Assembly: GCF_900128895.1 (NCBI RefSeq)
Contig: NZ_FSQW01000001.1
Coordinates: 1 to 64,000, forward strand
Origin: Parasphingorhabdus marina DSM 22363
GTDB lineage: Bacteria; Pseudomonadota; Alphaproteobacteria; Sphingomonadales; Sphingomonadaceae
Reading direction: 5' to 3'
Length of the DNA stretch: 64,000 nucleotides
Translations under genes and position numbers: made by a program
Notes under the pieces: generated by a model
The model's input: only the letters and a program-made list of their open reading frames with translations
What the model was told of the DNA's origin: nothing
Databases searched by the model: none
Shown: piece by piece, positions 17,915 through 56,510 of the stretch
Numbering within the stretch: the stretch's first letter is position 1
Layout of the letters: each line of letters starts with the position of its first letter

Positions 17915-20275
17915 TCAGAAGCGGATTTCTCCTGTCAGAAAAATCTGCCGGGGATTGCCATAGAAGGCCGACAATGTCCCTTCCGTTCCGAGAGCGGAAA
18001 TCGGCAGACCGTTGGGCCCGCTGGTGATCGCACCGGTCACCGGATCGGCCACAACGAATGTATAGCCCGAGGTGATATATTCCTTATCGGTCAGGTTCTT
18101 GCCATGCACGCCGAGACTCCAGCGACCTTCCGGCGCGGTATAGACAATGCTCGCATCCCACAGCGCAAACCCGCCCTGATCGATAAACGGGTTCGGGATC
18201 TCGAACTGGTTGGTGCTGCTGCGATAGGAGACCGTGGTGCCGAGATAGATATCACCATCCCCCAGCGGCGCCGACCAGGCCAGGGTTCCGCTGGCGGTCC
18301 ATTCCGGTGTATTTTGCACCTCCCGGAATTCGGCGACATCGGTGGGCACACCGCCAATATTGGTGATGAACTGTTTATACTCGGCGTTGATATAGCCCAG
18401 TGCGCCATTGAAGGTCAGGCTGTCACCGCTTGCCGCAAAATCCTGTGCCAGACGGGCATTCATTTCCAGTTCCAGGCCCCAGAACTCGGCCTTGCCGGCG
18501 TTGGAAACAACCCCGCAGAAGGTCGCGATGCCGCCGACATTACAGGCCACCGAGCCGGGGATCTGGACATCGGTATAATCCGCATAGAATCCGGCCAGCG
18601 CGATGTTCAGATCACCGCCGAGCAGACTGCCCTTGTAGCCGACTTCGTAGCTGTCGACCTGTTCGGGGCTGAAGCTCAGGAATGTCGCGATATCCTGATC
18701 GTCCAGCATGCCGTTGCCATTGGCATCGGGGGCATTGACCCCGACACCGCGGGGATCAAACCCGCCGCCCTTGAAGCCCTGCGAATAGCTGGCATAGATA
18801 TTGTGATCAGGCGTTGGCTTGAAGCTCAGCGAAGCGCGAGGCGTGAATTTCTTGAAATCGCGGCTACCCTGGAAATCGGTGCTCGGCCCGCCAAAGGGAA
18901 TGCCGGCGCCGCCAAATACCGGCGAACCGCCGCCGAGAAAGTTCTGGCGCAATATGTCCGCTTCGCGCTCGTCCCAGGTATAGCGGCCACCAAGGGACAG
19001 GCTGATCTGTTCGGAAAAATCATAGGTCACGTCACCGAATATGGCGTATGTCTCGGTATCAACATTGGCCTGGGTGAAGGCCGTAAAGCCCGCAAACGTA
19101 TTGAACAGCCGCACATCAAACAGGGTGTCTGCTGATGCGTCGAGATAGTAGAAGCCGAGCAAGGCATTGAGCGGCCCGTCGCCATAGAGCAACTGCACTT
19201 CCTGGCTGATCTGTTCATTATTGTAGATCGCCGGGACATCGAGATCGACAGCCGGAAGGGCGTCAAAATCGATCGGGGATGCGCTGTCATCCTTTCGCCA
19301 TGCGCTGATCGACCGCAATGTCAGCGTGTCGGTCAGCTCCGCCGTGATGTTCATCGCCACGCCATAGGCTTCAACATCCTGTACCGGGTCATTGAGTGCG
19401 CCGCGTGTGTCAAAGACATCGTCCAGGACCGGTGCACCCGAATCGGCACCGGGGATCAGCCGGTGGCCACCCCGGGGATTGCTTTCGTCCTTTGTATAAT
19501 CGCCGGAAATCCGGATCAGGATCGGCTCGCCATAGCCGCCAATTTCGAGTGAAGCCCGGCCGGCCCAGATATCCTTGTTATAATTTTCGATGCCCAGTGT
19601 GAGATTGTCGCCAAATCCGCCGCGCGACAGCCGTGCCACTGAGCCGCCGACGCGAACCTGATCGCCAAGCGGGCCGGAAACGGTCACCACGCCCTCGGCC
19701 AGATCATCGGTCCCGAACTTGCCGCGCAGTTTCAGCGAGAAATCCTGGGGAAGCGGCTTGGTCACATATTTGACGGCACCGCCAATCGTGTTGCGCCCGT
19801 AGAGCGTACCCTGTGGGCCGCGGAGCACTTCGATCCGTTCTACCTCATAAATATCCAGCACTGCGGCTTGCGGACGGTTGAGATACACATCATCGAGATA
19901 GATCCCGACTCCCTGCTCGAAGCCGGAGACCGGATCCTGTTGTCCAACCCCCCGGATGAACGCGGTCAACGTGGAATTGGTTCCGCGCGAGGGCTCGAGG
20001 GTGGTGTTGGGCGTAATCTGGCCGAGATCGGTAATGTCAATCGCGCCGCGCTGGGTCAGGAGCTCGTCGCTAAAGGTCGACACGGCAATCGGAACGTCAA
20101 GCAACGACTCCTCGCGCCGCCGGGCGGTAACGACGATAACATTGCCTTCTTCTCTATCGGATGCGGTTGCGGATGATTCGGTTTGTGCCTGAGCAGTTTG
20201 CGCTGGCACGAACAGACTGCCGACAAGTGCGGCTGCGGCAAGCGCGGAATGGCTGACGGTTGCAAGCTTTTTCAT
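17915..20275 (-). CDS. TonB-dependent receptor
   Basis: A 786-residue outer-membrane receptor for energised uptake. It starts MKKLATVSHSALAAAALVGS with a signal peptide ending near AQA, then a TonB-box-like EGNVIVVTARRREESLLDVP, a plug domain (about 45-165) and a 22-strand barrel ending in the terminal aromatic residue of FLTGEIRF. The ATG at 20275 is taken because the longer frame to 20527 has no signal peptide at its start. It is divergent from a TetR gene with a dyad between them. The lineage is the catabolic-substrate type common in sphingomonads; the ligand is unknown. Confidence 0.95.
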   Translation of the reverse strand: MKKLATVSHSALAAAALVGSLFVPAQTAQAQTESSATASDREEGNVIVVTARRREESLLDVPIAVSTFSDELLTQRGAIDITDLGQITPNTTLEPSRGTNSTLTAFIRGVGQQDPVSGFEQGVGIYLDDVYLNRPQAAVLDIYEVERIEVLRGPQGTLYGRNTIGGAVKYVTKPLPQDFSLKLRGKFGTDDLAEGVVTVSGPLGDQVRVGGSVARLSRGGFGDNLTLGIENYNKDIWAGRASLEIGGYGEPILIRISGDYTKDESNPRGGHRLIPGADSGAPVLDDVFDTRGALNDPVQDVEAYGVAMNITAELTDTLTLRSISAWRKDDSASPIDFDALPAVDLDVPAIYNNEQISQEVQLLYGDGPLNALLGFYYLDASADTLFDVRLFNTFAGFTAFTQANVDTETYAIFGDVTYDFSEQISLSLGGRYTWDEREADILRQNFLGGGSPVFGGAGIPFGGPSTDFQGSRDFKKFTPRASLSFKPTPDHNIYASYSQGFKGGGFDPRGVGVNAPDANGNGMLDDQDIATFLSFSPEQVDSYEVGYKGSLLGGDLNIALAGFYADYTDVQIPGSVACNVGGIATFCGVVSNAGKAEFWGLELEMNARLAQDFAASGDSLTFNGALGYINAEYKQFITNIGGVPTDVAEFREVQNTPEWTASGTLAWSAPLGDGDIYLGTTVSYRSSTNQFEIPNPFIDQGGFALWDASIVYTAPEGRWSLGVHGKNLTDKEYITSGYTFVVADPVTGAITSGPNGLPISALGTEGTLSAFYGNPRQIFLTGEIRF

Positions 20276-43368: not shown

Positions 43369-44298
43369 ATGCGGACCAAACAGACACTGGCCATTACCGG
43401 AGCAACGGGTTTTGTCGGAGAGCATCTGCTCAATCTGGCGGTCCGTGCCGGATTCCCGGTTCGGGCACTCACCCGTCGGCGCCAGGACGACCGGCCGAAT
43501 GTCACCTGGGTTGACGGATCACTGGAAAAACCGGCGAGTCTGGACGAGCTTTGCACTGGTGCCGATGTCGTCATCCACATCGCGGGTGTGGTCAACGCAC
43601 CGGATCGCCAGGGATTCGAAACGGGAAATGTTGCGGGAACACTGGCGATGGTTGAGGCGGCCAAAAAGGCGGGATGCAAGAGGTTCCTGCATGTCTCCTC
43701 GCTCGCCGCCAGGCAACCCGACCTGTCGATATACGGCGAAACGAAAGCCAAAGCGGAAAAGATTGTTGCGACCAGCGGACTCGACTGGACCATCATCCGG
43801 CCACCCGCCGTGTTTGGACCCGGAGACGGCGAGATGCTCGACCTGTTCAAAATGGCAAAGCTGGGCGTGATAACGCTGCCGCCCGATGCCGATGGTGTCT
43901 TGTCGGTTATTCATGTGGATGATCTTGCCCGGGCGCTGATGACGCTGATCCCGGAACATGAAGATCTGACTGCCCGCATATTTGAAGTCGACGACGGCAC
44001 TCCCGGCGGCTGGACACAGATCCAGTTTGCCCGGGAGATCGGCAAGGCGGTCGGCAACAAAAAGGTCCGGACAATCGGCATGCCGCGGGCCTTACTTAAG
44101 TTCGGGGCCAAGGCGGACCGGTTTTTCCGCAAGGACAAGGCCAAGCTCACCGCGGACCGGGTCAGCTATTTCTGCCATGATGACTGGACCATCGATCCGG
44201 CGAAGCGCCTGCCCCACCAGCTTTGGGTTCCCAAAATCGAAACCGAAAAAGGGCTGCGGGACACGGCGCAATGGTACCGCCTTAATGACTGGATGTAG
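43369..44298 (+). CDS. cerR: NAD-dependent epimerase/dehydratase, probable ceramide reductase (CerR-like)
   Basis: A 309-residue extended short-chain dehydrogenase. The Rossmann motif is ITGATGFVGEHLL, and the catalytic pair is in VSSLAARQPDLSIYGETKAKAE (YxxxK). In Caulobacter an SDR of this type beside acp and spt (CerR) reduces the 3-keto group during ceramide synthesis. The position here, 2.5 kb upstream of acp-spt and in the same direction, supports that role. Generic SDR motifs alone would not prove it. The gene may be read from the obg-proB transcript. Confidence 0.75.
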   Translation: MRTKQTLAITGATGFVGEHLLNLAVRAGFPVRALTRRRQDDRPNVTWVDGSLEKPASLDELCTGADVVIHIAGVVNAPDRQGFETGNVAGTLAMVEAAKKAGCKRFLHVSSLAARQPDLSIYGETKAKAEKIVATSGLDWTIIRPPAVFGPGDGEMLDLFKMAKLGVITLPPDADGVLSVIHVDDLARALMTLIPEHEDLTARIFEVDDGTPGGWTQIQFAREIGKAVGNKKVRTIGMPRALLKFGAKADRFFRKDKAKLTADRVSYFCHDDWTIDPAKRLPHQLWVPKIETEKGLRDTAQWYRLNDWM

Positions 44299-44362
44299 CG
44301 CGAAGCATCTGATAGCGTTGAAAAACATGAAGTAGGGTCGCCTTTGAAAAGAGGATACTCGG

Positions 44363-45427
44363 ATGGATGGTTTCGTAGGGAAACACTGGGTTTTGTTGCC
44401 TCGCCTGCTTCTTCTTGTTGCCGGGCTGGCCTGTATCAGCAGCACCCCTGTGCGAGCAAAGGACCGCGTCACACCGCTGTTCGCCAGCGATGAACTTCTC
44501 ACGGTCGAGCTGGCCGGCCCGATCAAGACGATTGCAAAGCGCGCGGCCAAGTCGATCGATCCTCAAGATGCAGTTCTGCAAGCCAATGGCGAAACCCATA
44601 ATATCGCCCTGTCGGCGCGGGGTGTCTCGCGGCGGAAACGCGAGAATTGCGTCTTCCCGCCCCTGCGCATCCGGTTTGCAGAAAAACCATCCAAAGGATC
44701 GCTTTTCCACAAACAGCGCAGCATCAAGCTGGTCACGCACTGCAAGGACAAGGATCGCAACGAGCAGGTGCTCTTGCGCGAATATGCGACCTATCGCCTG
44801 TACAATCTCATGACCCCGGAAAGCCTGAAAGTCCGGCTGGCCAGATTGCGGTACCGCGACGGCGAAACGGTTGTGGCAGAACGATACGGCTTCTTTATTG
44901 AAGATATTGATGATGCCGCGCGGCGATTGGGCGGCAAGGAAATCGACATTCCGCGAACCTCGGTCTCGGCACTCAGCGTTCCTGCAGCAGCGCGCTACAC
45001 GCTGTTCCAGTACATGATCGGCAATACGGACTGGGCCATGATTGCCGGCCCGCCGGGATCCGACTGTTGCCACAATTCCAAACTGGTTGGCCAGAACAAG
45101 GCTGCGCGGTCTGATCTGATCCCGGTTCCCTATGATTTCGACAATGCGGGGATCGTCAATGCCCCCTATGCCGTCCCGGCCGACGTGCTGCCGATCCGGT
45201 CAGTGCGGCAACGCTACTATCGCGGACATTGCCGGATGAACGAAGCGGTGAAACAGGCCGTTCCGGAATTTCTGTCGCGGCGCGCCGCTGTTGAAGGCGA
45301 GATTGCTTCGATCACTGTCCTGAGTGAGGATTCCCGAAAACAGATGCGCGCCTATCTGGGCGAGTTTTTCGATCAGGTGCAAAGCGCGGACTCAATCGAC
45401 AGGAAATTGTTCAAAACCTGTCGGTAG
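44363..45427 (+). CDS. Secreted protein with CotH-like atypical kinase motifs
   Basis: A 354-residue exported protein (signal peptide to about residue 32, STPVRA). I do not recognise a named family. It carries a kinase-like order of motifs: a lysine strand SIKLVTHC (K122), a helix glutamate in LLREYATYRLYN (E140), a catalytic-loop-like IGNTDW (219-224) with Asn238 after it, and a metal-binding-like PYDFDNAG (256-263). This order resembles CotH-type secretory kinases. Several cysteines may form disulfides. GAGGA lies seven bases before the ATG. It lies between cerR and the acp-spt genes. Kinase activity is inference only. Confidence 0.6.
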   Translation: MDGFVGKHWVLLPRLLLLVAGLACISSTPVRAKDRVTPLFASDELLTVELAGPIKTIAKRAAKSIDPQDAVLQANGETHNIALSARGVSRRKRENCVFPPLRIRFAEKPSKGSLFHKQRSIKLVTHCKDKDRNEQVLLREYATYRLYNLMTPESLKVRLARLRYRDGETVVAERYGFFIEDIDDAARRLGGKEIDIPRTSVSALSVPAAARYTLFQYMIGNTDWAMIAGPPGSDCCHNSKLVGQNKAARSDLIPVPYDFDNAGIVNAPYAVPADVLPIRSVRQRYYRGHCRMNEAVKQAVPEFLSRRAAVEGEIASITVLSEDSRKQMRAYLGEFFDQVQSADSIDRKLFKTCR

Positions 45428-45437
45428 GATGCGGCAT

Positions 45438-46028
45438 TCAAAGCAGCGGACCGGCGAGCTTTTCCAGCACATAGACCGCAAAGGTCAGCGTCAGTCCGAT
45501 CAGGAACACCCGGTAAGCCAGGCCCAGATAGCGATATTTCTTGTTCGCAAGCACCATTCCCATCTGGTGGATATCGAGCGACATCGCCCGGTAGACCTCG
45601 TCCTGATCCGAAAGATGACTGTCCACCAGCTTGTCGTAAAAGCTGTCGGCATCAAGTTCGCTAAAATTTCCAAAGAACAGCCAGTTGCGCTGGCCGCTTG
45701 CGGGGGTTCCGGTTTGCGGCAGCACCGCCAGAGCGCCAAAACCCGCAGCGGCGAATGCGGTGCCAGCCAGGATCAGCAAGGGAAGCGAGAAAGCTTCGTT
45801 CGCACCCTGTCCGATCGCGAGCGTGAACACGACAAAAGTCGCACCGATCAGCATATTGGCTTTCTGGTCCGCCATCATGCTCAATTGCACATGATGCTGC
45901 TGTGTCGTGCGCAATAGAGTCACCGCCTCTTTCGGCCACTTCTTCTTTGGGGCCACAGGCGCTTCCGGCTGTTTTGGGCTTACGGATTCTTCCGGCTGCT
46001 GCACAGTGGGCGGGCTCAACGGTTCCAT
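45438..46028 (-). CDS. DUF5706 / Pycsar effector-type membrane protein (copy 1)
   Basis: A 196-residue protein with an N-terminal Pro/Glu/Lys-rich tail, then LRTTQQHHVQLSMMADQKAN and two membrane helices (about 70-118), a helical linker and a C-terminal helix near 170-190. The DxKAN motif before the first helix and this layout match the Pycsar effector (PycTM, DUF5706) family. It is a paralogue of the next gene. The ATG at 46028 follows GGGAG by five bases. No nucleotide cyclase is adjacent, so a defence role is unproven. Confidence 0.78.
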   Translation of the reverse strand: MEPLSPPTVQQPEESVSPKQPEAPVAPKKKWPKEAVTLLRTTQQHHVQLSMMADQKANMLIGATFVVFTLAIGQGANEAFSLPLLILAGTAFAAAGFGALAVLPQTGTPASGQRNWLFFGNFSELDADSFYDKLVDSHLSDQDEVYRAMSLDIHQMGMVLANKKYRYLGLAYRVFLIGLTLTFAVYVLEKLAGPLL

Positions 46029-46079
46029 TATCACTCCCGTATCAATTTGCGGCGACCAGTTCTGCGAAATACTAGGCGA

Positions 46080-46622
46080 TCAGGTCGTCCCAAGCAACGG
46101 CCCGGACACCTGTTCAACCAGATATGTAACAAAAGTCAGCGACAAGCCAATCAGGAACACCCGATAAGCCAGTCCCAGATAGCGATATTTCTTTTTCTCC
46201 AGAACCAGACCCATCTGGTAAATATCGCGCAACATGGTGCGATAGACCTGTTCCTGCTCTCGCAGATTCCGGGCCAGAAGCTGGTCCTTGAACTCCTCTT
46301 CCGACATCTGGGAAAAAGCACCAAAAAATAATATGTTGGGATTTGCGCCTGCTCTGATTTTGGTAGCCGGCATCACCGCAATCGCCGCCAATCCGGCTGC
46401 AGAAAAGGCTGAAATGGCGAGAATCAGCAATGGCAGGGAAAAGCTGCTGACATGGCTCTGGCCAATGGCGAGAGTAAACACGACGAAAGTCGCACCGATA
46501 AGCATGTTGGCCTTGTGATCGGCCATCAGGCTGAGCTGCACATGATGCTGTTGCGTTGTCCGGAGCAGCTGGATGACCTCGGCTGGCCATTCCTGCCCGG
46601 GCGAGTCGCTGTCAGCCGCCAT
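46080..46622 (-). CDS. DUF5706 / Pycsar effector-type membrane protein (copy 2)
   Basis: A 180-residue paralogue of the neighbouring protein: HHVQLSLMADHKANMLIGAT followed by FVVFTLAIGQ is nearly identical, as is the C-terminal KYRYLGLAYRVFLIG. The middle domain has diverged. Two central helices and one C-terminal helix are predicted. The ATG at 46622 has AGGAGG six bases upstream. The 51-bp gap to copy 1 suggests one operon born of tandem duplication. It is divergent from acp. Confidence 0.78.
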   Translation of the reverse strand: MAADSDSPGQEWPAEVIQLLRTTQQHHVQLSLMADHKANMLIGATFVVFTLAIGQSHVSSFSLPLLILAISAFSAAGLAAIAVMPATKIRAGANPNILFFGAFSQMSEEEFKDQLLARNLREQEQVYRTMLRDIYQMGLVLEKKKYRYLGLAYRVFLIGLSLTFVTYLVEQVSGPLLGTT

Positions 46623-46757
46623 AGTTCCCTCCTGCTTCGCCACAAACTCGCACAACTAGCCTAATTGGGCAAGTTGATGCCCCGTTTCCGCCTTATTCCC
46701 TTGCCAATGGGGCGCATGGGTTGGCAAAGGTCAATCACAACAATGCAGGAAACACAC

Positions 46758-47003
46758 ATGGCAAGTCGCGAACAGATAATGGAAAAAGTGGAAGGTCTGA
46801 TCGGTCCTTTCAACAACAAGGGCGTCGAGCTCAAGGAAGAGACCACATTTGCAAATGATCTCGAATGGGACAGCCTGACCGTGATGGATTTCGTGGCCGC
46901 TGTCGAAGACGAGTTTGACATCATCATCACGATGAACATGCAGGCCGAGATCGAGAATGTAGGCCAGCTCGCCGATGCTGTCGCGAAACTGATGGATAAC
47001 TGA
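46758..47003 (+). CDS. acpR: Acyl carrier protein for serine palmitoyltransferase
   Basis: An 81-residue acyl carrier protein. The phosphopantetheine site is Ser39 in EWDSLTVMD. The rest is acidic and helical as expected. A dedicated carrier next to spt is the pattern in Caulobacter (AcpR), where it supplies the acyl chain to the palmitoyltransferase. The ATG at 46758 has AGGA upstream; one at 46743 is less likely. A palindromic repeat lies between it and spt. Confidence 0.9.
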   Translation: MASREQIMEKVEGLIGPFNNKGVELKEETTFANDLEWDSLTVMDFVAAVEDEFDIIITMNMQAEIENVGQLADAVAKLMDN

Positions 47004-47017
47004 ACAGGGAATGATAA

Positions 47018-47098
47018 GCGTCATGCCGGACTATGTTCGGCATCCCGGAGGGCCGGTCGGCCATTCGGGAAGACCCTGAATCACATTCGGGATGACGC
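47018..47098. repeat. REP-like palindromic element between acp and spt (type D)
   Basis: The arm 47018-47046 (with ATGCCG...CGGCAT as an inner hairpin) and the arm 47072-47098 form a loose inverted repeat. Each ends in GCGTCAT or its complement. It fills the intercistronic gap and could affect mRNA stability or partial termination. Confidence 0.6.
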
Positions 47099-47112
47099 AG
47101 GGACGCCAGGAC

Positions 47113-48312
47113 ATGACTGATTTGCTTTCGAAATTTGACCCGCTGATCGAGGAGCGTGAAACCCTTCTCGCGACCGGCGTAAAAGACCCGTTCTCGCTGG
47201 TGATGGAAGAGGTGCTTTCGCCCACTGTGGCGATTTGCAATGGCCGGGAAACCATTTTGCTGGGTACCTATAATTATATGGGCATGACCTTTGACGATGA
47301 CGTCCGGCAAGCCGGGCTCAAGGCACTCGAGGACTTCGGTTCCGGCACCACCGGCAGCCGCGTGCTCAACGGTACCTACAGCCCGCACAAGGATTGCGAA
47401 GAGGCGCTCAAGGAATTTTACGCCATGGATCATGCCATGGTGTTTTCCACCGGCTACCAGGCCAATCTCGGGATCATATCAACGCTGGCCGGGAAGGGCG
47501 ACTATGTCATTCTCGACATCGACAGCCATGCCTCCATCTATGACGGCTGCGCCATGGGCAATGCCGAGATTGTCGCGTTCCGCCACAATGATGCCGAAGC
47601 GCTCGAAAAGCGGCTCAAACGCCTGCCCGCAGAGGCCGGCAAGCTGGTTGTGCTCGAAGGCGTCTATTCGATGCTCGGTGACGTGGCCCCGCTGAAGGAA
47701 ATGATCCGCATCTGCAAGGAAAACGGCGCGATGACACTGGTCGACGAAGCCCACAGCATGGGCTTTATCGGCGAGAATGGTCGCGGCGTGGTTGAAGATC
47801 AGGGCGTGATTGACGATGTCGACTTCATCATCGGCACCTTCTCGAAAAGTGTCGGCACGGTTGGTGGCTTTTGTGTATCCAACCATCCGAAATTCGAGAT
47901 CATGCGGCTGGTCTGCCGGCCCTATGTCTTTACCGCCTCGCTGCCACCCAGCGTGATGGCCACCGCCAGCACCTCGATCCGCAAGCTTATGCATTCGGGG
48001 AACAAGCGTGCACATCTCTGGGAAAACAGCAAGAAACTCCACAAGGGCCTGCGCGATCTGGGATTCGAACTGGGCACGCCGGAAGCACAAAGCGCGATCA
48101 TCGCGGTGATCATGCCCAATCTCGAAAAGGGCGCCATGATGTGGCAGGCGCTGCTCGAGGAAGGACTATACGTCAACCTCGCCCGCCCGCCCGCAACTCC
48201 TGCAAACATGACCCTGCTCCGCTGCTCGCTCTGCGCGGAACATACCAGTGAGCAGGTCGACCAGATCCTCGGCATGTTTGAAGCAGCCGGAAAAGCGGTG
48301 GGCGCGATTTAG
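47113..48312 (+). CDS. spt: Serine palmitoyltransferase
   Basis: A 399-residue soluble PLP enzyme of the alpha-oxoamine synthase family. It condenses serine with an acyl thioester to 3-ketosphinganine, the first sphingolipid step. The PLP lysine is Lys245 in GTFSKSVGTVGGF; the aspartate and histidine of VDEAHSMGF are Asp211 and His214; the ring-stacking histidine is His139 in DSHAS. The sequence closely follows the Sphingomonas paucimobilis enzyme (ILLGTYNYMGMTF, PYVFTASLPPSVMATA). The ATG at 47113 is preceded by AGGA. It is cotranscribed with the crotonase gene, ten bases on. Confidence 0.97.
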   Translation: MTDLLSKFDPLIEERETLLATGVKDPFSLVMEEVLSPTVAICNGRETILLGTYNYMGMTFDDDVRQAGLKALEDFGSGTTGSRVLNGTYSPHKDCEEALKEFYAMDHAMVFSTGYQANLGIISTLAGKGDYVILDIDSHASIYDGCAMGNAEIVAFRHNDAEALEKRLKRLPAEAGKLVVLEGVYSMLGDVAPLKEMIRICKENGAMTLVDEAHSMGFIGENGRGVVEDQGVIDDVDFIIGTFSKSVGTVGGFCVSNHPKFEIMRLVCRPYVFTASLPPSVMATASTSIRKLMHSGNKRAHLWENSKKLHKGLRDLGFELGTPEAQSAIIAVIMPNLEKGAMMWQALLEEGLYVNLARPPATPANMTLLRCSLCAEHTSEQVDQILGMFEAAGKAVGAI

Positions 48313-48322
48313 GGGCGGCTGC

Positions 48323-49126
48323 ATGGATACCAAAAATCCCACATTGCTTGTCGAACAGCGCGGGCCGATTGAAATTCTCTCGCTGAACCGGCCGGACAAG
48401 CTCAACACGATGAACGAAGACATGATCTTCGCATTGCAGGACTATTTTCGCGAATTGCAGAACCGGCATGAGGTGCGGGTCGTGCTGTTCCGCGCCGAGG
48501 GGCGGGCCTTTTGCGCCGGTCTCGACATCGGTGCCTGGCAGAATGACGGGTCCCGCGGGCAGGTCCAGCATGTCTGGCGGACACAGCGCCATATCGCGAC
48601 CGTGATGCAGCTGATGCGACAATGTCCGCAGCCGATCATCGCGCTCGCCCAGGGTGCGGCCTGTGGCGGCGGCTTTTCCCTGCTGCTGGCAAGTGATGTC
48701 CGCTATGGCGCGCCGGACCTGAAAATGAATGCCGCCTATATCAAGATCGGCCTCGGCGGATGTGACATGGGGTCGAGCTATTTCCTGCCCCGTCTGGTCG
48801 GCTCCTCGCTGGCTTCGGAACTGATATTGACCGGCCGGTTCCTGCACGCGGAACGCGCCGGGAAAGCCGGGCTGATCAGCGAAGTGGTGGATGCGGATCA
48901 GCTGCTCTCCACCGGCCTCGCGCTCGCCGAAGAGATGCTCGACACTGCGCCCATGGGCTTGCGCTTGTCCAAGGATGCGCTCAACCGCAATATCGACGCG
49001 CAAAGTTTCGAAGCGGCGCTCGCGATTGAGGACCGGCAGCAGGTGATGCTCAGCATGACCGAGGACAGCCGCGAAGCGGCGAAAGCCTTTTTCGCCAAGC
49101 GGAAGCCGGACTACAAGGACCGGTAG
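48323..49126 (+). CDS. Enoyl-CoA hydratase/isomerase family protein in the spt operon
   Basis: A 267-residue crotonase-fold protein. The oxyanion segments are AFCAGLDIGAW and AQGAACGGGFSLLLASDVRYG; the segment KIGLGGCDMGSSYFLPRLVG follows. The start is ten bases after the spt stop, which argues for one operon. It may act on an acyl-CoA or acyl-ACP that feeds the lipid pathway, or it may be an unrelated fatty acid enzyme. The reaction is not defined. Confidence 0.88.
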   Translation: MDTKNPTLLVEQRGPIEILSLNRPDKLNTMNEDMIFALQDYFRELQNRHEVRVVLFRAEGRAFCAGLDIGAWQNDGSRGQVQHVWRTQRHIATVMQLMRQCPQPIIALAQGAACGGGFSLLLASDVRYGAPDLKMNAAYIKIGLGGCDMGSSYFLPRLVGSSLASELILTGRFLHAERAGKAGLISEVVDADQLLSTGLALAEEMLDTAPMGLRLSKDALNRNIDAQSFEAALAIEDRQQVMLSMTEDSREAAKAFFAKRKPDYKDR

Positions 49127-49134
49127 CTTGTTCC

Positions 49135-49207
49135 GTCACCCCAGCGAAGGCTGGGGTCTCTGGCGTGTTTCAAAGCCGCCTGAGATACCAGCCTTCGCTG
49201 GGGTGAC
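49135..49207. repeat. REP-like palindromic element, type C copy 2
   Basis: Arms 49135-49158 and 49182-49207 are close reverse complements built on GTCACCCCAGCGAAGGC and its complement. It is closely related to the copy at 13349-13435. It lies between convergent stops (49126 and 49211) and could serve as a bidirectional terminator. Confidence 0.85.
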
Positions 49208-49210
49208 GCG

Positions 49211-50131
49211 TTACTTGATCGCGCCGCCCGCAATCAGTCGGGGCAGCATCGTCAGCGCGCCGAGGATTGGCCATTTGCGCTGCCAGGGTTTGATCACATA
49301 GTCGGTCCCCGCATGGCGGTTGATCTTCCAGGCCAGATAATCGATCCCGCCGGCATAGGTCCCCGACGCCTTGGCCAGGCGGGCCAGTGTCAGCAGCTTG
49401 CCATTCCGGCGCAGGGCCTTCCAGCGTTTCTCGGCCGCAGGCGTGGTCAGGTTCAGGGCCTCCGCCGGATCCTGCTGCTGCATCGTGACCATGGTCGCCA
49501 GGCCGATGCGATCATAGCGTCCCGGATCCGCGTCCACGACCGAGCCTGGGCGATTGGCACGTTCTGCACGCAATTCGGCACCATAGGTGAGCTCAAATCC
49601 GTGGCGATAGATACGCTCGGGCGTTTGCGGCTGTGTCCCCAGCACGGGAATGGTCAGCTCGAACAGCGTGATCGACGCCTGTTCGATCGCGGCCACCGCC
49701 TTGTCCCGGGCGACATCGTCGGCGCTCCAGACAAGCCGTGACGGCTGGGCAAAGCGGGCCCAGACGCTGACCGCACTGGCCTCTGGCCGGTTCAGCCGGA
49801 GAAAGTCCGCTTCGCTGAGCACGGCCACCTTGGCGACCAGGCCGTCATGTTCGGCGGGAAACACATTGGGCGGCAGCAGCCGGTTCGCCCCCACCAGCCA
49901 GCTTTTCCCGTATGCGGCTTCATAGCTGGACACGATCAGATAGAAATCGAGCATTTGCCCGTCCAGCTCAGTGGTGCGCAAACAGGAACCATAGAACAGG
50001 ACCGCGCGGGCGGCCTCGCCATATTGCGCAGCAATGTCGGCGGCAAAATCCGACACACGCACATCGACGGGTTCCGCCAGCTCTTCAGTGATCAGGGGTG
50101 TCAGGTCGCTCACGCGAAGGCCCTGGCTCAA
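49211..50131 (-). CDS. Nucleotidyltransferase-like protein beside the lipid kinase
   Basis: A 306-residue protein with an N-terminal segment like a pol-beta-type nucleotidyltransferase: LFYGSCLRTTELDGQMLDFY (residues 45-64), with Gly48-Ser49 and acidic residues Asp57 and Asp62. The C-terminus is basic and hydrophobic. I do not recognise the family. The start is TTG at 50131, which overlaps the kinase stop (TTGA); GTG at 50113 is an alternative. The coupling to a ceramide-kinase-like gene suggests a role in sphingolipid headgroup assembly; this is inference. Confidence 0.65.
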   Translation of the reverse strand: MSQGLRVSDLTPLITEELAEPVDVRVSDFAADIAAQYGEAARAVLFYGSCLRTTELDGQMLDFYLIVSSYEAAYGKSWLVGANRLLPPNVFPAEHDGLVAKVAVLSEADFLRLNRPEASAVSVWARFAQPSRLVWSADDVARDKAVAAIEQASITLFELTIPVLGTQPQTPERIYRHGFELTYGAELRAERANRPGSVVDADPGRYDRIGLATMVTMQQQDPAEALNLTTPAAEKRWKALRRNGKLLTLARLAKASGTYAGGIDYLAWKINRHAGTDYVIKPWQRKWPILGALTMLPRLIAGGAIK

Positions 50132-51102
50132 GCGGCAAGCTTCAGAAAGGAAACCGGCTTGGTCGATTTGAGGACAATCGGACGGCCCTCCTGGGCGCGG
50201 AACAGCTCGCCGTCCATCAGCACATTGCTGTTTTTCCCTTCAATGCGGATCGTGTCACCCTGCTCGAAATGAATGCCCTTCTGTCGCTTCTGTCCGAGGC
50301 GGCCGGATATGACCGCGAACAGGAACCGCAAAATGGCACCCGCCTGCTGATCAATCGCAACCAGCTGCATGCGGCCGCGAATTTTCTTGCTGCGCGCAAA
50401 ACGTCGCATCAGCAGCAATTTCTCAAGAGTGGTTACGATCAGCACCGCAAAATTACCCTGATACTCGCCTTCCCGGATCAGCGAGATCTTCACTGGCGAA
50501 GGCCGGTTGGGCAGGAATTTCGCGCGCAGGCCAAACAGGACTGAAGCCAGCGCGGCAATCGCCGTCAGCACATGTGCCGCCGCATTGGGCAGACCCAGAG
50601 GATAGATTTTATGGCGGCAATAAAGAATGAATTCCGAGAGGCCGGCACCGCCGAGGAACATGCCGAGCACCACCTTGCTGTCCTTGCTGCCGTCCGAAAG
50701 GGCAATCAGCTCGCGATCAACCAGATGCTCGTGCAGGTCATGTTTGGCCATCTCGACAATGCGTTCGAGCGCCTTGAGCGGGTCGCCTTCTGCGCCAAGA
50801 TCGAGCGCGATCAGATTGGTTTTGCCGTTGGGCAGGACCGCCACCGGCGGCGGATTGTCTCCGAAATGGCCGCCCTGATGAAGCTCGGTTAGCGCCGCCT
50901 GAACCGTCCCGTCGCCGCCATTGATGACCAGCACTTTTGGCTTGACCCGGGCAATGGTTTCCAGCGCTCTCGCTATTTCGTCGACTGTATCGACTTCATA
51001 GTGAAATACATCGCTCGTCTTGACACAATAGGAGCGCACCTCGGGCAGAATCGCCCGGTTTCCCGTGGAGTTGGGATTGGAGAGGAGCGCGACATTGGCC
51101 AT
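50128..51102 (-). CDS. cpgB: DAGK-family lipid kinase, probable ceramide kinase (CpgB-like)
   Basis: A 324-residue lipid kinase of the diacylglycerol/sphingosine kinase superfamily. The nucleotide loop is GGDGTVQ (62-68). The second motif is LPNGKTN (90-96) in place of the usual PxGTxN. SNPNSTGN near residue 8 is the conserved start. A DAGK-type ceramide kinase (CpgB) in the Caulobacter sphingolipid locus makes ceramide 1-phosphate for an anionic headgroup; this gene sits in the matching context. The functional assignment is by analogy. Confidence 0.78.
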   Translation of the reverse strand: MANVALLSNPNSTGNRAILPEVRSYCVKTSDVFHYEVDTVDEIARALETIARVKPKVLVINGGDGTVQAALTELHQGGHFGDNPPPVAVLPNGKTNLIALDLGAEGDPLKALERIVEMAKHDLHEHLVDRELIALSDGSKDSKVVLGMFLGGAGLSEFILYCRHKIYPLGLPNAAAHVLTAIAALASVLFGLRAKFLPNRPSPVKISLIREGEYQGNFAVLIVTTLEKLLLMRRFARSKKIRGRMQLVAIDQQAGAILRFLFAVISGRLGQKRQKGIHFEQGDTIRIEGKNSNVLMDGELFRAQEGRPIVLKSTKPVSFLKLAA

Positions 51103-51136
51103 TAGCTGCGGCCTGCCAAACGAGAGAGGGTCTGGA

Positions 51137-51619
51137 TCATCTGTATTTCATCCGGATATTGATGGATTTCACTTCATTGCCGACGGCAAAGGCGGTTTTC
51201 TTGTAGCTTGGCTTGCCAAGATTGAAGATGTTGATGCTGGGGTTATTCGACATTCCGCCACCATCGCTGAAGATGTCAGTCTTGCCATTATTGTTGATAT
51301 CATGGCGAACCGCGACGGCGTAATTTCCTGCAGCTTCAATCGGCAGACAGAATTGCATGTCACCCTTGCGCGCAGGCACTTCGACCCGGTGCAGCCAGGC
51401 GCCTTTCTTGAGCCATTCCGATTTGGTGCCGCGATAGGTCTGCACCCGCATCATGCCGGTTCCGGCCTTGACGCCGCTGATCTTGACCAGCACGGCAGAG
51501 CCGTTGCTGCCATTGCAGCGGCTGAGGTCGTTGTCGATTTTCTGACGACCGGCTTCGGCAGGGGCGGCAGCCACCAGAATCAGGGTTGAAAGGGCAGAAA
51601 CTGCTGCAATTTTCAACAT
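51137..51619 (-). CDS. DUF2141 exported protein
   Basis: A 160-residue secreted protein: signal peptide to about residue 23 (APAEAG), then the DUF2141 domain with VAVRHDINNNGKTDIFSDGG, a pattern that may bind calcium, and two cysteines. It is probably periplasmic. AGGAG lies ten bases before the ATG. It is 34 bp upstream of the lipid kinase in the same direction, so the three minus-strand genes may form one operon. Function unknown. Confidence 0.9.
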   Translation of the reverse strand: MLKIAAVSALSTLILVAAAPAEAGRQKIDNDLSRCNGSNGSAVLVKISGVKAGTGMMRVQTYRGTKSEWLKKGAWLHRVEVPARKGDMQFCLPIEAAGNYAVAVRHDINNNGKTDIFSDGGGMSNNPSINIFNLGKPSYKKTAFAVGNEVKSINIRMKYR

Positions 51620-51744
51620 GACGAGAATACTCCTAGACGTTATACACCCACCTGTACTCCGGCGGGTGATGGTATTTGCCCCTTTAATAGCGATTCATAT
51701 GACCTTGATTTGCGGCAGAAACATGGTGAGAGGGCGACGATAAG

Positions 51745-52956
51745 TTGAAATTGTTCACTTCCACCGACCGCTATATCGCCCGGCTGGTTGCGGTGCCCCT
51801 GTTTGGGACACTGGTTATTGCCGCAATGTTGCTGGTTCTTGAAAAAATGTTGCGTCTGTTCGACTTCGTGGCGGCCGAAGGCGGCCCGGTCAGTGTGGTC
51901 TGGCGGATGCTGGCCAATCTGATCCCGGAATATCTGTCTCTTGGCATTCCGATCGGGCTGCTGCTCGGCATATTGCTGGCTTTTCGCCGGCTGGCGCTGA
52001 GCTCCGAACTCGATGTTTTCCGGGCCGTCGGACAAGGCTATGGCCGGCTGCTCCGGGTTCCCTACATGTTTGCGATCGCACTGGCGCTGGTCAATCTCAC
52101 GCTGGTCGGCTTCATCCAGCCGCTATCCCGCTATTATTACGAAGAATTGCGGTTTGAACTGCGGTCTGGCGCACTGGGTGCCTCGATCAAGGTCGGCGAG
52201 TTTACCAGCCTCGGGCAGCGCATGACCATGCGGATCGAGGAAAGCCGGGACAATGGCACACGGCTCAGCGGCATGTTTGTCCGCGCCGAAAACCGCGAAG
52301 GTCAGATTGTCTCGGTTACCGCGAAAAATGGCCAGTTTCTCGCAACGGATGATCCTGACACGATCATCTTGCGGCTGTCCAATGGTGTCCTGATCCATGA
52401 CGCGCCGAATTATGATCAGCCCAGGGTCCTGAGTTTCAGCAGCCACGACCTGCCCATCGACCTGCCGGACATTGCCGCGTTCCGGCAACGGGGGGAAAAG
52501 AATCTCGAATATACCATCCCCGAACTGGTGCGCGTCGGGCTCGATACCAGCCGGACCGAGACCCAGCGCAATGAATCCCGCGCAAATTTCCATTTCCGCA
52601 TGGTGGAAGTGGTGATGATGCTGCTGATGCCGCTGCTCGCGGTGGCCCTCGCGATTCCGCCCAAAAGATCGAATTCCGCGCTGGGCGTATTTCTGTCGAT
52701 CATCATGATTGTGACCTATCACAAGGTCAATCAATATGGAGAGGATATCGGTGCGCTCGGCATTGTCGATCCGATCATCGCTCTCTGGGTGCCGTTCTTT
52801 GTCTTCTCCGCGCTGATCATATGGATGTATCACATGGTTGCCCATGTCCCCGGTGGTCAGCCGATCGGAGCGCTGGAAAAAGGATTCTCGAAATTCGGCG
52901 GCGTGTTCAAGGGTCTGCTCAATTTCAATCGCAAGCGAGCCAATGTGAATGACTGA
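51745..52956 (+). CDS. lptF: LPS export ABC transporter permease LptF
   Basis: A 403-residue inner-membrane permease of the YjgP/YjgQ family. Three N-terminal helices (about 15-130), a periplasmic beta-jellyroll (about 140-270) and three C-terminal helices (about 285-385) follow the family plan. With LptG and LptB it drives lipid transport across the envelope. The start is TTG at 51745; no ATG lies before the first helix, so the rare start is needed. lptG follows after 33 bp. Confidence 0.92.
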   Translation: MKLFTSTDRYIARLVAVPLFGTLVIAAMLLVLEKMLRLFDFVAAEGGPVSVVWRMLANLIPEYLSLGIPIGLLLGILLAFRRLALSSELDVFRAVGQGYGRLLRVPYMFAIALALVNLTLVGFIQPLSRYYYEELRFELRSGALGASIKVGEFTSLGQRMTMRIEESRDNGTRLSGMFVRAENREGQIVSVTAKNGQFLATDDPDTIILRLSNGVLIHDAPNYDQPRVLSFSSHDLPIDLPDIAAFRQRGEKNLEYTIPELVRVGLDTSRTETQRNESRANFHFRMVEVVMMLLMPLLAVALAIPPKRSNSALGVFLSIIMIVTYHKVNQYGEDIGALGIVDPIIALWVPFFVFSALIIWMYHMVAHVPGGQPIGALEKGFSKFGGVFKGLLNFNRKRANVND

Positions 52957-52989
52957 TCTTTCTTTCCCTGCACGGCGAGGTCGAAGCGC

Positions 52990-54078
52990 ATGAACTTTTT
53001 CCCGTCCCGCACCCTGTCCGTCTACATGGCGCGCATGTTCCTGATCCGGGTGTTCAGCGTTGTCGCCCTGCTCGTCGTCGTCCTGATGTCGCTCGACCTG
53101 CTTGGGCAGAGCGGCAAGATTTTCGCCTATCCGGGCAATGGCGAGGCGGAATTATGGACCTACACATCCTTGCGTCTTCCGCAGATTTTCGCCTTCGCCC
53201 TTCCCTTTTCGGTATTGCTCGGCACCCTGATCACGCTCGCCACGCTCAATCAGAACAGCGAAGTGGTTTCGATGAAGGCTGGCGGCCTGTCCGCCCACCA
53301 GATCCTGGCGCCGTTGATCCTTGCCAGCATGGGAGTGGCGATCGTGTCCTTCCTGTTCAACGAAATTGTGGTCGCGCCGGCTACCGCCCGGCTTTCGGCC
53401 TGGGAGAAAGTGGAATTCGGTCCCATTCCGGAAGCCAGCAACGTCCGGTCGCGGGTCTGGGTGCGTGATGGAAATAATCTGATCAATGCGCGAACTGTAA
53501 TCGGCAACGGCAGGTCGGTTCTCCTGAAGGACATCACGGTCTATAACCGGTCCGAAAGCGGCCTGAGCAGCGTGATACAGGCCGATGAAGGCCGCTATGG
53601 CGGCGATATATGGACGCTTTCGACGGTTACCCGGTTTGATGTCGCCAGCGGCACCGAACAAAAACTGGAAACGCTGGAAATCGGTGGCAACCTGACTCCG
53701 GACCAGTTTACCCTGTCAGATGTCAGCGCGGACGCCCTGTCCTTCCCGGAACTGCGCAGCGCCATCCAGCAGCTCAAGGAAGCCGGCCGACCGACGGCAA
53801 AGCTGGAAGCCAGTCTGTGGCACAAATTGTCGGGACCGCTCTCGGTTGTGCTTATGCCCTTGCTCGGTGCGGTGGCTGCCTTCGGACTGGCCCGGTCGGG
53901 CCAGCTGTTTCTGCGCGCCGTTATTGGCATGGCGCTCGGCTTCACCTATTTCGTGGCGGACAATTTCGCGCTCGCAATGGGGAATATCGGCGCCTACCCG
54001 CCCTTTCTGGCGGCCTGGGCACCGTTCCTGCTGTTTTTCCTGATCGGCGAAACGGTATTGGTTCGCACCGAAGAATAG
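52990..54078 (+). CDS. lptG: LPS export ABC transporter permease LptG
   Basis: A 362-residue partner of LptF with the same layout: N-terminal helices (about 15-130), a periplasmic domain with WVRDGNNLINAR, and C-terminal helices ending before VRTEE. It sits in the inner membrane as an LptF-LptG dimer on LptB. The cargo in a sphingomonad may be glycosphingolipid instead of LPS, given the surrounding ceramide genes. Its stop is seven bases from the convergent desaturase stop. Confidence 0.92.
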   Translation: MNFFPSRTLSVYMARMFLIRVFSVVALLVVVLMSLDLLGQSGKIFAYPGNGEAELWTYTSLRLPQIFAFALPFSVLLGTLITLATLNQNSEVVSMKAGGLSAHQILAPLILASMGVAIVSFLFNEIVVAPATARLSAWEKVEFGPIPEASNVRSRVWVRDGNNLINARTVIGNGRSVLLKDITVYNRSESGLSSVIQADEGRYGGDIWTLSTVTRFDVASGTEQKLETLEIGGNLTPDQFTLSDVSADALSFPELRSAIQQLKEAGRPTAKLEASLWHKLSGPLSVVLMPLLGAVAAFGLARSGQLFLRAVIGMALGFTYFVADNFALAMGNIGAYPPFLAAWAPFLLFFLIGETVLVRTEE

Positions 54079-54084
54079 CCGCGA

Positions 54085-55194
54085 TCAGGCGGACCCGGTG
54101 CGAGCCGATCCGCGGACCAGGCCCATGATCAGCGCCCAAAGGCTTTTGTAGTTGCCCTTTGCATAGGTCGACCCTTCCGGCAGCTCCCGCGCGATCCGGC
54201 GATGGGCTTCGCCCAAGGCGTGGTAAGGCAGGCCCGGCAGGAGGTGATGCAGGGCGTGATAGCGCAGACCAACCGGCGCCCACAGTGCCGGCAGGGTTGC
54301 CGGCGGCGGGACATTGACGCTGTCGAGATATTGCGCGGTAACAGTCATTTCCTCACCGTCATTTTCCCACAGATGCGCAACCAGCGTCCGGATCTGGTTG
54401 AGGACGACACTGCCGGACATCACCAGCAGGAAGATCACAAATGCCCGCACCGGGATGACCTGCAGGGCAACCATGGCCATCAGGGCGATCGCCCAGATGC
54501 TGGCGGCTATTTCGCTGACCAGCCAGCGGCGGCGGAGATCGCCTTCCGGCGGTTTGCGACGAAATTCCGGATTGATGATCAGGCCGGAATAGCGTTCGAC
54601 GACCAGCTTGCGGAGCGGCGGAATCACAAAGGACAGCGGCGTCAGCACACCGAAACGGAACAAGAGCGCGATCGGCGCCAGAGACGCCACGACCACAAAC
54701 AACGGCACGGTCCAGGGCTTCATCAGCGCCAGCGGCAAATATTCCGGATCTTCGATCGTTCCGTATTTTTTGGTCCGGTGATGGATACTGTGCACGCCTT
54801 CATACATGAAGGACGGAATCAGCATCGGCACGCCGAACAGGGCATTCCATGCAAAATGAAAGCCCGGCAGGGCATTGCGGCGGACATGGGTCAGCTCGTG
54901 AATGAAACTGCCCGCACGATAGAGTGCAAGAACGGCAATCAGGCCGGAAAACAGGGCCACAGCGACCGACGGTGCGAAAATCGCAGCGAACAGGGCAGCA
55001 TAGCCGATCCCCGCCGAAAGGAGGAAATCCGTCCAGTAAATGGCGGGTTTTGCGCCATGCAGGTCTCGGGTGACCTTGGCGGCCGTGCGGATGAGATGCG
55101 TGTCTTCGGCCACGCGTGACCGGGCCGCGCCGTCATCGACGGCTCCTGCAGCATATTCGCGGGCATCCTGTGCCGGGGGAAACGAACTGTCCAT
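54085..55194 (-). CDS. Membrane fatty acid desaturase
   Basis: A 369-residue di-iron membrane enzyme. The three histidine boxes are HELTH (99-103), HSIHH (135-139) and HALHH (313-317), with about four membrane helices between. Such enzymes desaturate or hydroxylate acyl or sphingoid chains. The position, divergent from the bCerS-like gene, makes a sphingolipid chain a plausible substrate, but a phospholipid acyl chain is equally possible. Confidence 0.9.
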   Translation of the reverse strand: MDSSFPPAQDAREYAAGAVDDGAARSRVAEDTHLIRTAAKVTRDLHGAKPAIYWTDFLLSAGIGYAALFAAIFAPSVAVALFSGLIAVLALYRAGSFIHELTHVRRNALPGFHFAWNALFGVPMLIPSFMYEGVHSIHHRTKKYGTIEDPEYLPLALMKPWTVPLFVVVASLAPIALLFRFGVLTPLSFVIPPLRKLVVERYSGLIINPEFRRKPPEGDLRRRWLVSEIAASIWAIALMAMVALQVIPVRAFVIFLLVMSGSVVLNQIRTLVAHLWENDGEEMTVTAQYLDSVNVPPPATLPALWAPVGLRYHALHHLLPGLPYHALGEAHRRIARELPEGSTYAKGNYKSLWALIMGLVRGSARTGSA

Positions 55195-55352
55195 ATCTAC
55201 CTGTCTCTGTTACGCGCCGCCTACAGCAGCATATCATGGCACAAAAAAGGCCTGAATATGTTTGCGACGGCGTTTCCTTGCCCGATCCTGCTCTTGACAT
55301 GATCGGGAAATTGTCGCCACAGCCTGCCTGAACGAAAAGGAACGGACATTCC

Positions 55353-56510
55353 GTGGGAACAGCAGACATAGTCATCGAACCGGTCACAACCAAGGCCCAG
55401 ACAAAGCAGTTTGTCGAATGTGCCTATCGGATCAACGCCGATGATCCGCATTGGGTACCGCCCCTGAAATCAGAGGTTTACGCCCTGCTGACCCCTGGAA
55501 AAAACCCGTTTTTCGAACATGCCAGGGTCCAGTTGTATCTGGCCCGGCAGGACGGCAGGGTGACAGGGCGGATCAGCGCGCATATCGACGAACTGGCGCT
55601 CGCCCAGCCCGCGGAACAGGGCATGGGGCCGGGCACCGGAAACTGGGGCATGCTGGAGGCGGAAAGCGAAGCCGTGGCCGTAGCGCTGATCCGGCAGGCA
55701 GAAAGCTGGCTAAAAGAACAGGGCATGCACCGCGTACTGGCGCCCCTCAGCCTGTCTGTCTGGGATGAACCCGGCCTGCTGACCATGGGGCACGACCATC
55801 CGCCGACTGTGATGATGGGCCATAACAAGCCCGACTATCAGGACTGGATCGAGGCCATGTCCTATTCTCCGGCGAAGCTGCTCCATACCTATGCGCTGGA
55901 AGTCAAGGACGGCTTTCCCAGACTGATCGAACGGATTATCGCCTCTGGTGAACGCAATGACAAACTTGTCATCCGGCCGGTCGACAAGAAGCATTTCGAC
56001 CGGGATGCAGCGATCATCATGGGTCTGCTGAACGATGCATGGTCGGCCAACTGGGGCTTCGTTCCCCTGACCGATACCGAAATCGCGCATGTCGGCAAAA
56101 AGCTGAAAGCCATCGTCTATGAAGATCTGATCATGATCGCGGAGCTGGAAGGAGAGCCAGTGGCGTTCATGATGACGCTGCCGGATCTCAACGAGAAGCT
56201 CAAACCGATGAAAGGCAGTTTGCTGCCGTTCAACTGGATCAAACTGCTCTGGTGGCTGAAATTTCCCACAGCGAAAACCATGCGGGTCCCACTGATGGGC
56301 GTGAAGCGGGAGCTGCAGAACAGCCGCCTCGCCAGCCAGCTCGCCTTCATGATGATCGAATATATCCGGCGCAAGGCGGTCGCCAATTTCGGAACCGAGC
56401 AAGCGGAAATCGGCTGGATTCTCGAAGACAATCAGGGGATGGTGGCAATTGCCGACGCCATCAAGTCGGAGATCAACCGGACCTACACACTCTACGAAAA
56501 AAATATTTGA
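55353..56510 (+). CDS. bcerS: GNAT-family N-acyltransferase, probable bacterial ceramide synthase
   Basis: A 385-residue protein with GNAT-type architecture: an N-terminal VECAYRINADDPHWVPPL, ERIIASGERNDKLVIRPVD, and a C-terminal segment with AEIGWILEDNQGMVAIADAI. In Caulobacter a GNAT protein of this size and context (bCerS) N-acylates 3-ketosphinganine. The matching locus supports the same role here. The start codon is GTG at 55353, with GGA about seven bases before it. A hairpin follows the stop. Confidence 0.78.
   Translation: MGTADIVIEPVTTKAQTKQFVECAYRINADDPHWVPPLKSEVYALLTPGKNPFFEHARVQLYLARQDGRVTGRISAHIDELALAQPAEQGMGPGTGNWGMLEAESEAVAVALIRQAESWLKEQGMHRVLAPLSLSVWDEPGLLTMGHDHPPTVMMGHNKPDYQDWIEAMSYSPAKLLHTYALEVKDGFPRLIERIIASGERNDKLVIRPVDKKHFDRDAAIIMGLLNDAWSANWGFVPLTDTEIAHVGKKLKAIVYEDLIMIAELEGEPVAFMMTLPDLNEKLKPMKGSLLPFNWIKLLWWLKFPTAKTMRVPLMGVKRELQNSRLASQLAFMMIEYIRRKAVANFGTEQAEIGWILEDNQGMVAIADAIKSEINRTYTLYEKNI

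Follow-up and report, generated by a model that had tools for sequence, protein, structure and literature searches.

A predicted sphingolipid locus of Parasphingorhabdus marina encloses an LptF/LptG pair of a sphingolipid-linked clade

How sphingolipids reach the outer membrane (OM) has been called unknown (PMC11324152, PMC11087976). The question is raised by a locus of Parasphingorhabdus marina DSM 22363 in which predicted genes for ceramide synthesis surround lptF and lptG, whose products belong to the same family (PF03739) as LptF/LptG of the E. coli-type exporter of lipopolysaccharide (LPS). The locus occupies positions 43369 to 56510 of the window, by which we mean the whole stretch of 64,000 nucleotides that was analysed, which opens contig 2 in a genome of 3.55 Mb. 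We consider it likely that this locus makes an OM sphingolipid and also encodes the inner-membrane components that export it; the cargo, a CDP-ceramide intermediate, acyl-chain hydroxylation and the Caulobacter-like activities are predicted. Comparison places the LptF/LptG pair in a clade tied to sphingolipid synthesis, and it is the sole pair in most of the examined genomes that encode serine palmitoyltransferase (Spt) and lack LpxC. The original prediction for this DNA had described a nearly complete, Caulobacter-type locus for ceramide and anionic sphingolipids and had passed over its central genes, lptF and lptG, together with a pair of PycTM-like genes and a CotH-like gene.

The seven gene types that had been named (short-chain dehydrogenase/reductase (SDR), acyl carrier protein (ACP), Spt, lipid kinase, nucleotidyltransferase-like protein, desaturase and GNAT protein) were all located where they had been placed, each with an intact reading frame. 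Spt (47113..48312, + strand) matches the equivalog NF047603 with 794.9 bits (cut-off 670), and its best solved relatives are structures named serine palmitoyltransferase (2x8u, E 1.4e-209), of which we take 2x8u to be the enzyme of S. wittichii. With the 2x8u chain as a query we found at least 80 loci, here called named loci, nearly all of them from sphingomonads to judge by the record titles; a single one bears the name Bacillus and is presumably mislabelled. Counts over 62 loci refer to the named loci of at least 19 kb, the 18 shorter ones of the 80 being excluded. A further set comprised 30 spt stretches from other families, each of 20 kb or less and several from one family, in which homologues were counted at a lax limit of E 1e-3.

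In the 62 named loci we found acpR in 62, the nucleotidyltransferase-like gene in 47, the SDR gene in 39, lptF and lptG in 35 each, the GNAT gene in 31, the kinase and DUF2141 genes in 23 each, a PycTM-like gene in 21, the desaturase gene in 17 and the crotonase gene in 2. The 30 stretches from other families held Spt in 30, the SDR in 27, the ACP in 25, the nucleotidyltransferase-like protein in 21, the GNAT protein in 19, the kinase, LptF and LptG in 18 each, DUF2141 in 5, the crotonase in 2 and the desaturase in 1; LptF and LptG can cross-match, and lptF was found by a match of its own in 17 of the 30. Three loci of one other family (L028, L044 and L047) keep the order of the window, with SDR-acpR-spt, nucleotidyltransferase-kinase-DUF2141, lptF-lptG and the GNAT gene. 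The clustering is thus not a matter of chance, since subsets of these genes recur around spt both in the named loci and in other alphaproteobacterial families. A blastn search of spt for E. coli ceramide genes as anchors gave no match.

The pair in the middle of the locus consists of LptF (51745..52956, + strand) and LptG (52990..54078, + strand), which match PF03739 with 205.2 and 257.2 bits, and these are the only two PF03739 genes of the genome. LpxC catalyses the committed step in the synthesis of lipid A. We detected it in none of 25 genomes (that of P. marina and 24 relatives), in a survey whose control search matched E. coli and Caulobacter. Ordinary lipid A is therefore an unlikely cargo of LptF/LptG in this organism. 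The same 25 genomes held two PF03739 genes in 22 cases, three in G399, four in G401 and none in G406.

We then compared Spt (E 1e-60), LptF/LptG and LpxC in 142 alphaproteobacterial genomes, mostly one per family. Seven genomes had both Spt and LpxC, and five of them carried four or more LptF/LptG genes and two carried two; one of the latter, G035, has an Spt match of just 34%. Exactly two LptF/LptG genes were present in 9 of the 11 genomes with Spt and without LpxC, and none in the other 2. Genomes with LpxC and without Spt (n=110) had two such genes in 98 cases, four in 1 and none, one or three in 11, and those lacking both markers (n=14) had none in 6, one in 1, two in 6 and three in 1. Among LpxC-positive genomes, extra LptF/LptG copies go with Spt (Fisher p 7e-7). 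A second, overlapping set of 23 Spt-positive genomes gave two LptF/LptG genes in 14, four in 1 and none in 2 of the LpxC-negative genomes (n=17), and four in 5 and two in 1 of the LpxC-positive ones (n=6). Hence, a second pair accompanies sphingolipid synthesis in bacteria that make LPS, and a single pair stays in most sphingolipid makers without LpxC.

Trees of LptF and LptG, each with 52 rows (91 loci had both genes), both split 24 | 28 with support 100/100. All 21 copies from within spt loci, that of the window and 20 others, fall on the 28-row side, and this side is completed by seven pairs that lie beyond the fetched spt stretch in six Spt-positive genomes (one each in G163, G095, G027, G175 and G058, two in G341). 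The 24-row side comprises copies outside spt loci, 22 of them from LpxC-positive genomes plus those of G059 and G087. Seven genomes with both Spt and LpxC (G271, G175, G123, G163, G095, G026 and G124) have one pair on each side, and three columns each in LptF and LptG carry clade-specific residues at 75% or more. The trees omit all named loci except four, the in-locus copies L044 and L054, the duplicates L200 and L204, L206, and L180 of G027, which has LptF only, with 53 bits as against 207 for the sphingolipid-type copy of G027. They are also without L201 and L205, the four copies of G022 are not placed, and E. coli LptF/LptG are not among the rows. Together, the sequence comparisons suggest that the pair of the window belongs to an old branch that serves sphingolipids rather than LPS. 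One of the two sphingolipid-type pairs of G341 (L182/L183) is very divergent.

Several observations weigh against an exporter dedicated to sphingolipids. The trees are unrooted; G059 and G087, with neither LpxC nor Spt, have LptF/LptG in the other clade; and G079 encodes Spt and LpxC with a pair of the other clade only. Three genomes with Spt and without LpxC have no LptF/LptG at all (G066, G280 and G071, the last 82% complete), G022 has four copies without Spt, G341 has no LpxC and two sphingolipid-type pairs, and among the relatives of P. marina G399, G401 and G406 deviate from two genes. In three genomes of the family of P. marina (L041-L043) spt does not adjoin lptF/lptG; acpR and spt alone stay together there, accompanied in two by a PycTM-like gene. 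The lipid made by this organism is predicted from its genes, and the identities of CerR, the GNAT protein and the kinase are candidates by family and place, not by comparison with Caulobacter sequences. The survey, finally, covered LpxC as the single lipid A marker and, within the Lpt machine, LptF and LptG but not LptA-E. This scope would accommodate a locus that makes ceramide and has LptF/LptG as chance neighbours carrying another glycolipid or an LPS-like molecule, and two or more LptF/LptG genes indeed occur in 7 of the 14 genomes without LpxC and Spt. Such a coincidence is nonetheless unlikely, given that 17 of the 30 loci of other families (18 at the laxer limit) and 35 of the 62 named loci have lptF within the stretch fetched around spt, and that in-locus copies and the extra copies of Spt-positive genomes form one clade.

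We next considered which lipid the enzymes of the locus could supply to a sphingolipid exporter. The steps of Spt/AcpR, CerR, ceramide synthase and ceramide kinase have been established mainly in Caulobacter. The specialised ACP AcpR (46758..47003, + strand; PF00550, with a DS site) is encoded directly upstream of spt, the one gene ending at 47003 and the other starting at 47113, and acpR adjoins spt in all 62 named loci of at least 19 kb. The CerR-like NAD(P)-dependent epimerase/dehydratase, an SDR (43369..44298, + strand; PF01370) and the predicted ceramide reductase, has the motifs GATGFVG and YxxxK, and its matches in the PDB include NDUFA9-like chains; Caulobacter CerR is likewise said to be NDUFA9-like. 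The SDR of the window shares 26-39% identity (up to 192 bits) with homologous SDRs encoded close to spt in other families, and homologues are present in the fetched spt stretch of 27 of the 30 loci of other families (at the lax limit) and in 46 of the 80 named loci. The candidate bacterial ceramide synthase (CerS/bCerS) is a GNAT-family protein (55353..56510, + strand) that scores 20.1 bits on PF00583, for which the cut-off is 20.7. Its homologue in locus L061 scores 24.0, above the cut-off, and homologues are present in 19 of the 30 spt stretches of other families (E 1e-3); a search of solved structures with the GNAT protein gave zero matches.

Two genes on the opposite strand point to a phosphorylated headgroup. 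The DAGK-type lipid kinase (50128..51102, - strand; PF00781, 53.9 bits) carries a diacylglycerol kinase (DAGK) domain with a GGDG motif and is, by this domain and motif, a candidate ceramide kinase of the CpgB (CC_1160) type. Beside it lies the gene of a nucleotidyltransferase-like protein (49211..50131, - strand), a candidate CpgC (CC_1161 type) by its predicted fold and its place beside the kinase. Its sequence had no significant match among solved structures, and its predicted fold is that of the CDP-diacylglycerol synthase Tam41, to which it is 15% identical; the enzyme of the window probably acts on ceramide-1-phosphate. An identity as CpgD was dropped on account of this fold. A kinase with a diacylglycerol kinase domain and an enzyme with the fold of a CDP-diacylglycerol synthase might simply serve glycerolipids, turning diacylglycerol into CDP-diacylglycerol. 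We regard this as improbable, as both genes recur near spt across families and like-placed genes of Caulobacter are required for ceramide phosphoglycerate (PMC11324152), where CpgB phosphorylates ceramide (PMC10331486).

A role in headgroup synthesis would also connect the two genes with the exporter. In 18 of 24 compared Spt-positive genomes a Tam41-type gene lies in the fetched spt stretch, and all 18 have PF03739 genes. Three of the 24 (G066, G280 and G079) are without the sphingolipid-type pair and also without the nucleotidyltransferase-like and kinase genes near spt, and this joint absence is a hint that the cargo of the exporter carries a phospho-headgroup; G012, G095 and G163, which have the pair and lack a kinase or Tam41-type gene near spt, argue the other way. 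Loci L034, L050 and L051 (of G066, G280 and G358) hold the SDR, acpR, spt and GNAT genes with no nucleotidyltransferase-like gene or kinase nearby; LptF/LptG and LpxC are both missing from G066 and G280.

The desaturase-family enzyme (54085..55194, - strand; PF00487) is encoded between lptG and the GNAT gene. In the 33 named loci with both of these neighbours, the slot between them is filled by a desaturase in 17, by a PF04116 SCS7-like hydroxylase in 15, by neither in 1 and by both in 0. The hydroxylase of the relatives has four histidine boxes, and among solved structures it matches yeast SCS7, the ceramide fatty-acid hydroxylase, best (E 5.4e-8). In 20 further GNAT-holding loci the hydroxylase adjoins the GNAT gene in 14; the other six include L027, from the family of P. 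marina, which has a desaturase in this position instead. Among 30 Sphingomonadales genomes, selected in part by the content of the slot, 22 encode the desaturase and 10 the hydroxylase, so that 28 hold exactly one, 2 both and 0 neither. Class-wide (E 1e-25), the desaturase occurs in 8 of 385 genomes including that of P. marina, and all 8 are Spt-positive, compared with 53 of 385 genomes overall. Hence, the desaturase is probably no random addition to the locus. Gene order across Sphingomonadales accordingly bears out the original prediction in that subsets of the locus genes recur around spt, and departs from it in that the desaturase occupies a conserved slot and is probably not an extra.

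The simplest reading of this exchange, by analogy, is that the two enzymes share one job, the hydroxylation of the ceramide acyl chain, for which Caulobacter CC_0202 would be a precedent as a DesA-family enzyme reported to hydroxylate the acyl chain of sphingolipids (PMC11324152). The histidine boxes of the desaturase (HELTH, HSIHH and HALHH) are of the di-iron type shared by hydroxylases and desaturases, and the protein had zero matches in the search of solved structures. A different activity is a possibility to be taken seriously, even if it is the less probable one: as a member of the FA_desaturase family, the enzyme could place a double bond in the sphingoid base or the N-acyl chain and hydroxylate nothing. 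Genomes with both desaturase and hydroxylase exist outside the order (G076 and G093) and within it (G416, and G423 with a hydroxylase interrupted by an internal stop), and the coexistence in G076, G093 and G416 means that the enzymes can differ in function. In S. paucimobilis the known alpha-hydroxylase of fatty acids is a P450 (PMC10002949), which leaves room for the desaturase to do other work, and 5 of the 8 desaturase genomes are from one family. These points count against a shared hydroxylation; the common slot, the partly selected 28 of 30 genomes with exactly one of the enzymes and the activity reported for CC_0202 speak for it.

The remaining genes of the locus differ in how they relate to the pathway. 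The secreted DUF2141 protein (51137..51619, - strand; PF09912, 75.9 bits) has a hydrophobic N-terminal segment and is a candidate periplasmic partner of the exporter. Its gene adjoins that of the kinase in 24 of the 25 named loci having the kinase, and DUF2141 genes have also been found beside crtG (PMC5989583). The AlphaFold2 model of the protein (pLDDT 84.5) gave no Foldseek match at E 0.001. In L028, L044 and L047 the DUF2141 gene lies between the kinase gene and lptF. The crotonase-family protein (48323..49126, + strand; PF00378) is probably lineage-specific and incidental. We hold a function as a pathway enzyme unlikely, as homologues are rare: just 2 of the 80 named loci have one, some 10 kb away from spt, and so do 2 of the 34 other loci. 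One of the latter, L059 of another family, has its crotonase-family gene beside spt and keeps some doubt alive. Thus, where crotonase, DUF2141 and desaturase had been taken together as additions to the described pathway, this description probably suits the crotonase, and the conserved slot of the desaturase and the place of DUF2141 beside the kinase speak against it for the other two. In 55 of the 56 named loci having the nucleotidyltransferase gene, a gene for a CHASE3 hybrid histidine kinase lies between it and spt (11262-13247 in L061), and the crotonase gene occupies the counterpart of this position in the window.

Upstream of acpR and divergent from it lies a tandem pair of genes for PycTM-like membrane proteins (45438-46622). 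Copy a (45438..46028, - strand) matches PF18967 with 83.1 bits and the PADLOC model PycTM at E 1.2e-10, and copy b (46083..46622, - strand) does so with 84.5 bits and at E 1.3e-14. A PycTM-like homologue is found at the same place in 25 of the 80 named loci, in every case on the opposite strand and with a gap of about 100-250 bases. Among the neighbours of the pair, the acp and spt genes match other families and the CotH-like gene matches nothing over the cut-off; no search for the cyclase (PycC) that accompanies PycTM in the Pycsar defence system was made. The PycTM-like protein may have a sphingolipid-related role in the membrane and not be a defence effector. The secreted protein with weak similarity to CotH kinases (44387..45427, + strand; PF08757, E 0.0018, below the cut-off) was rejected as a part of the locus, with homologues in 0 of the 80 named and 0 of the 34 other loci; its gene is a lineage-specific insertion. 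Locus L079 encodes, at 18009-19520, a 503-residue protein that has no Pfam match and looks flippase-like by eye. Its homologues occur in 8 named loci, 5 of which were seen to have the gene between lptG and the GNAT gene, and in 3 loci of another family; none is in the window.

The arrangement is already published in kind; new is the comparative evidence on the LptF/LptG clade and the desaturase slot. In Caulobacter, CC_1168-CC_1152 comprise the genes for ceramide, six that serve the ceramide phosphoglycerate headgroups and second versions of LptC, LptF and LptG, which have been proposed, not studied, as sphingolipid exporters (PMC11324152). The window resembles this region in bringing together genes of the cerR, acpR, spt, kinase (CC_1160), CDP-diacylglycerol-synthase-like (CC_1161), lptF2/lptG2 and cerS types, and it adds the desaturase and DUF2141. 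Whereas Caulobacter makes LPS and its LptF/LptG of this region are second versions, the genome of P. marina has one pair and no LpxC. Likewise, the pair shares the LptF/LptG family (PF03739) with the E. coli-type LPS exporter, but it falls in a clade apart from LptF/LptG of LpxC-positive alphaproteobacteria.

Orthologues of 16 of 17 Caulobacter genes have been described in S. wittichii, spread over 6 distant regions (PMC11324152). There, epi (Swit_3897), acpR (3899), spt (3900) and the acyltransferase gene aca (3908) follow one another in the same order as in the window (PMC9386255), so that the split gene order described for P. marina resembles a published one. Rhizorhabdus histidinilytica (L061), with an Spt that shares 99% identity with 2x8u, has an order like that of S. 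wittichii; it differs from the window in having an SCS7-like hydroxylase for the desaturase, a histidine kinase for the crotonase and no CotH-like gene. The account of a Caulobacter-type ceramide and phosphosphingolipid locus is hence upheld. The description of the locus as nearly complete has to be qualified: queries from other families for aasR, a CDP-alcohol transferase, a metallophosphoesterase and a CofC-like protein found none in the 64-kb window (E 1e-8), to which the search was confined, so that it has no candidates for aasR, CC_1159, CC_1158 and CC_1153. Of CpgA, CC_1153 and CpgD, all of them required in Caulobacter for the second phosphoglycerate, the search covered CpgA and CC_1153 within the window and found a candidate for neither. 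In Sphingomonadaceae aasR is distant from spt, and in S. wittichii it lies elsewhere in the genome (PMC9386255).

Taken together, these comparisons suggest a route from serine to an exported lipid. Spt would join serine to an acyl chain carried on AcpR, the GNAT protein would N-acylate the 3-keto base and CerR would then reduce the product to ceramide. The desaturase-family enzyme would probably hydroxylate the amide-linked acyl chain, in place of the SCS7-like hydroxylase of the relatives. The DAGK-type kinase would form ceramide-1-phosphate, which the Tam41-fold enzyme would probably activate with CTP to CDP-ceramide, towards a headgroup of the ceramide phosphoglycerate type. LptF/LptG would probably pull the completed lipid out of the inner membrane so that it can pass on to the OM.

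For alphaproteobacteria as a whole we somewhat favour a scheme with two anciently separate inner-membrane Lpt pairs, one for LPS and one for phosphorylated sphingolipids. Sphingomonads and several further lineages would have lost LPS together with its pair and would run the OM solely on the sphingolipid pair, and the desaturase type would replace the SCS7 type in part of the order. Among the matches listed in a search of open-licence PubMed Central, we found no statement that the only LptF/LptG of sphingomonads are of the sphingolipid-linked clade. Rhodothalassium salexigens has been described as a sphingolipid-making alphaproteobacterium that lacks LPS, and the main text of that paper contains no words starting with lpt or lpx (PMC11762602). 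LPS-free bacteria whose sole LptF/LptG lie in a sphingolipid locus are a natural experiment on sphingolipid transport. Depleting the sole pair in an LPS-free host has no LPS side effect, which makes the question of export directly answerable. If our reading is true, the Lpt machine is not restricted to LPS as its cargo.

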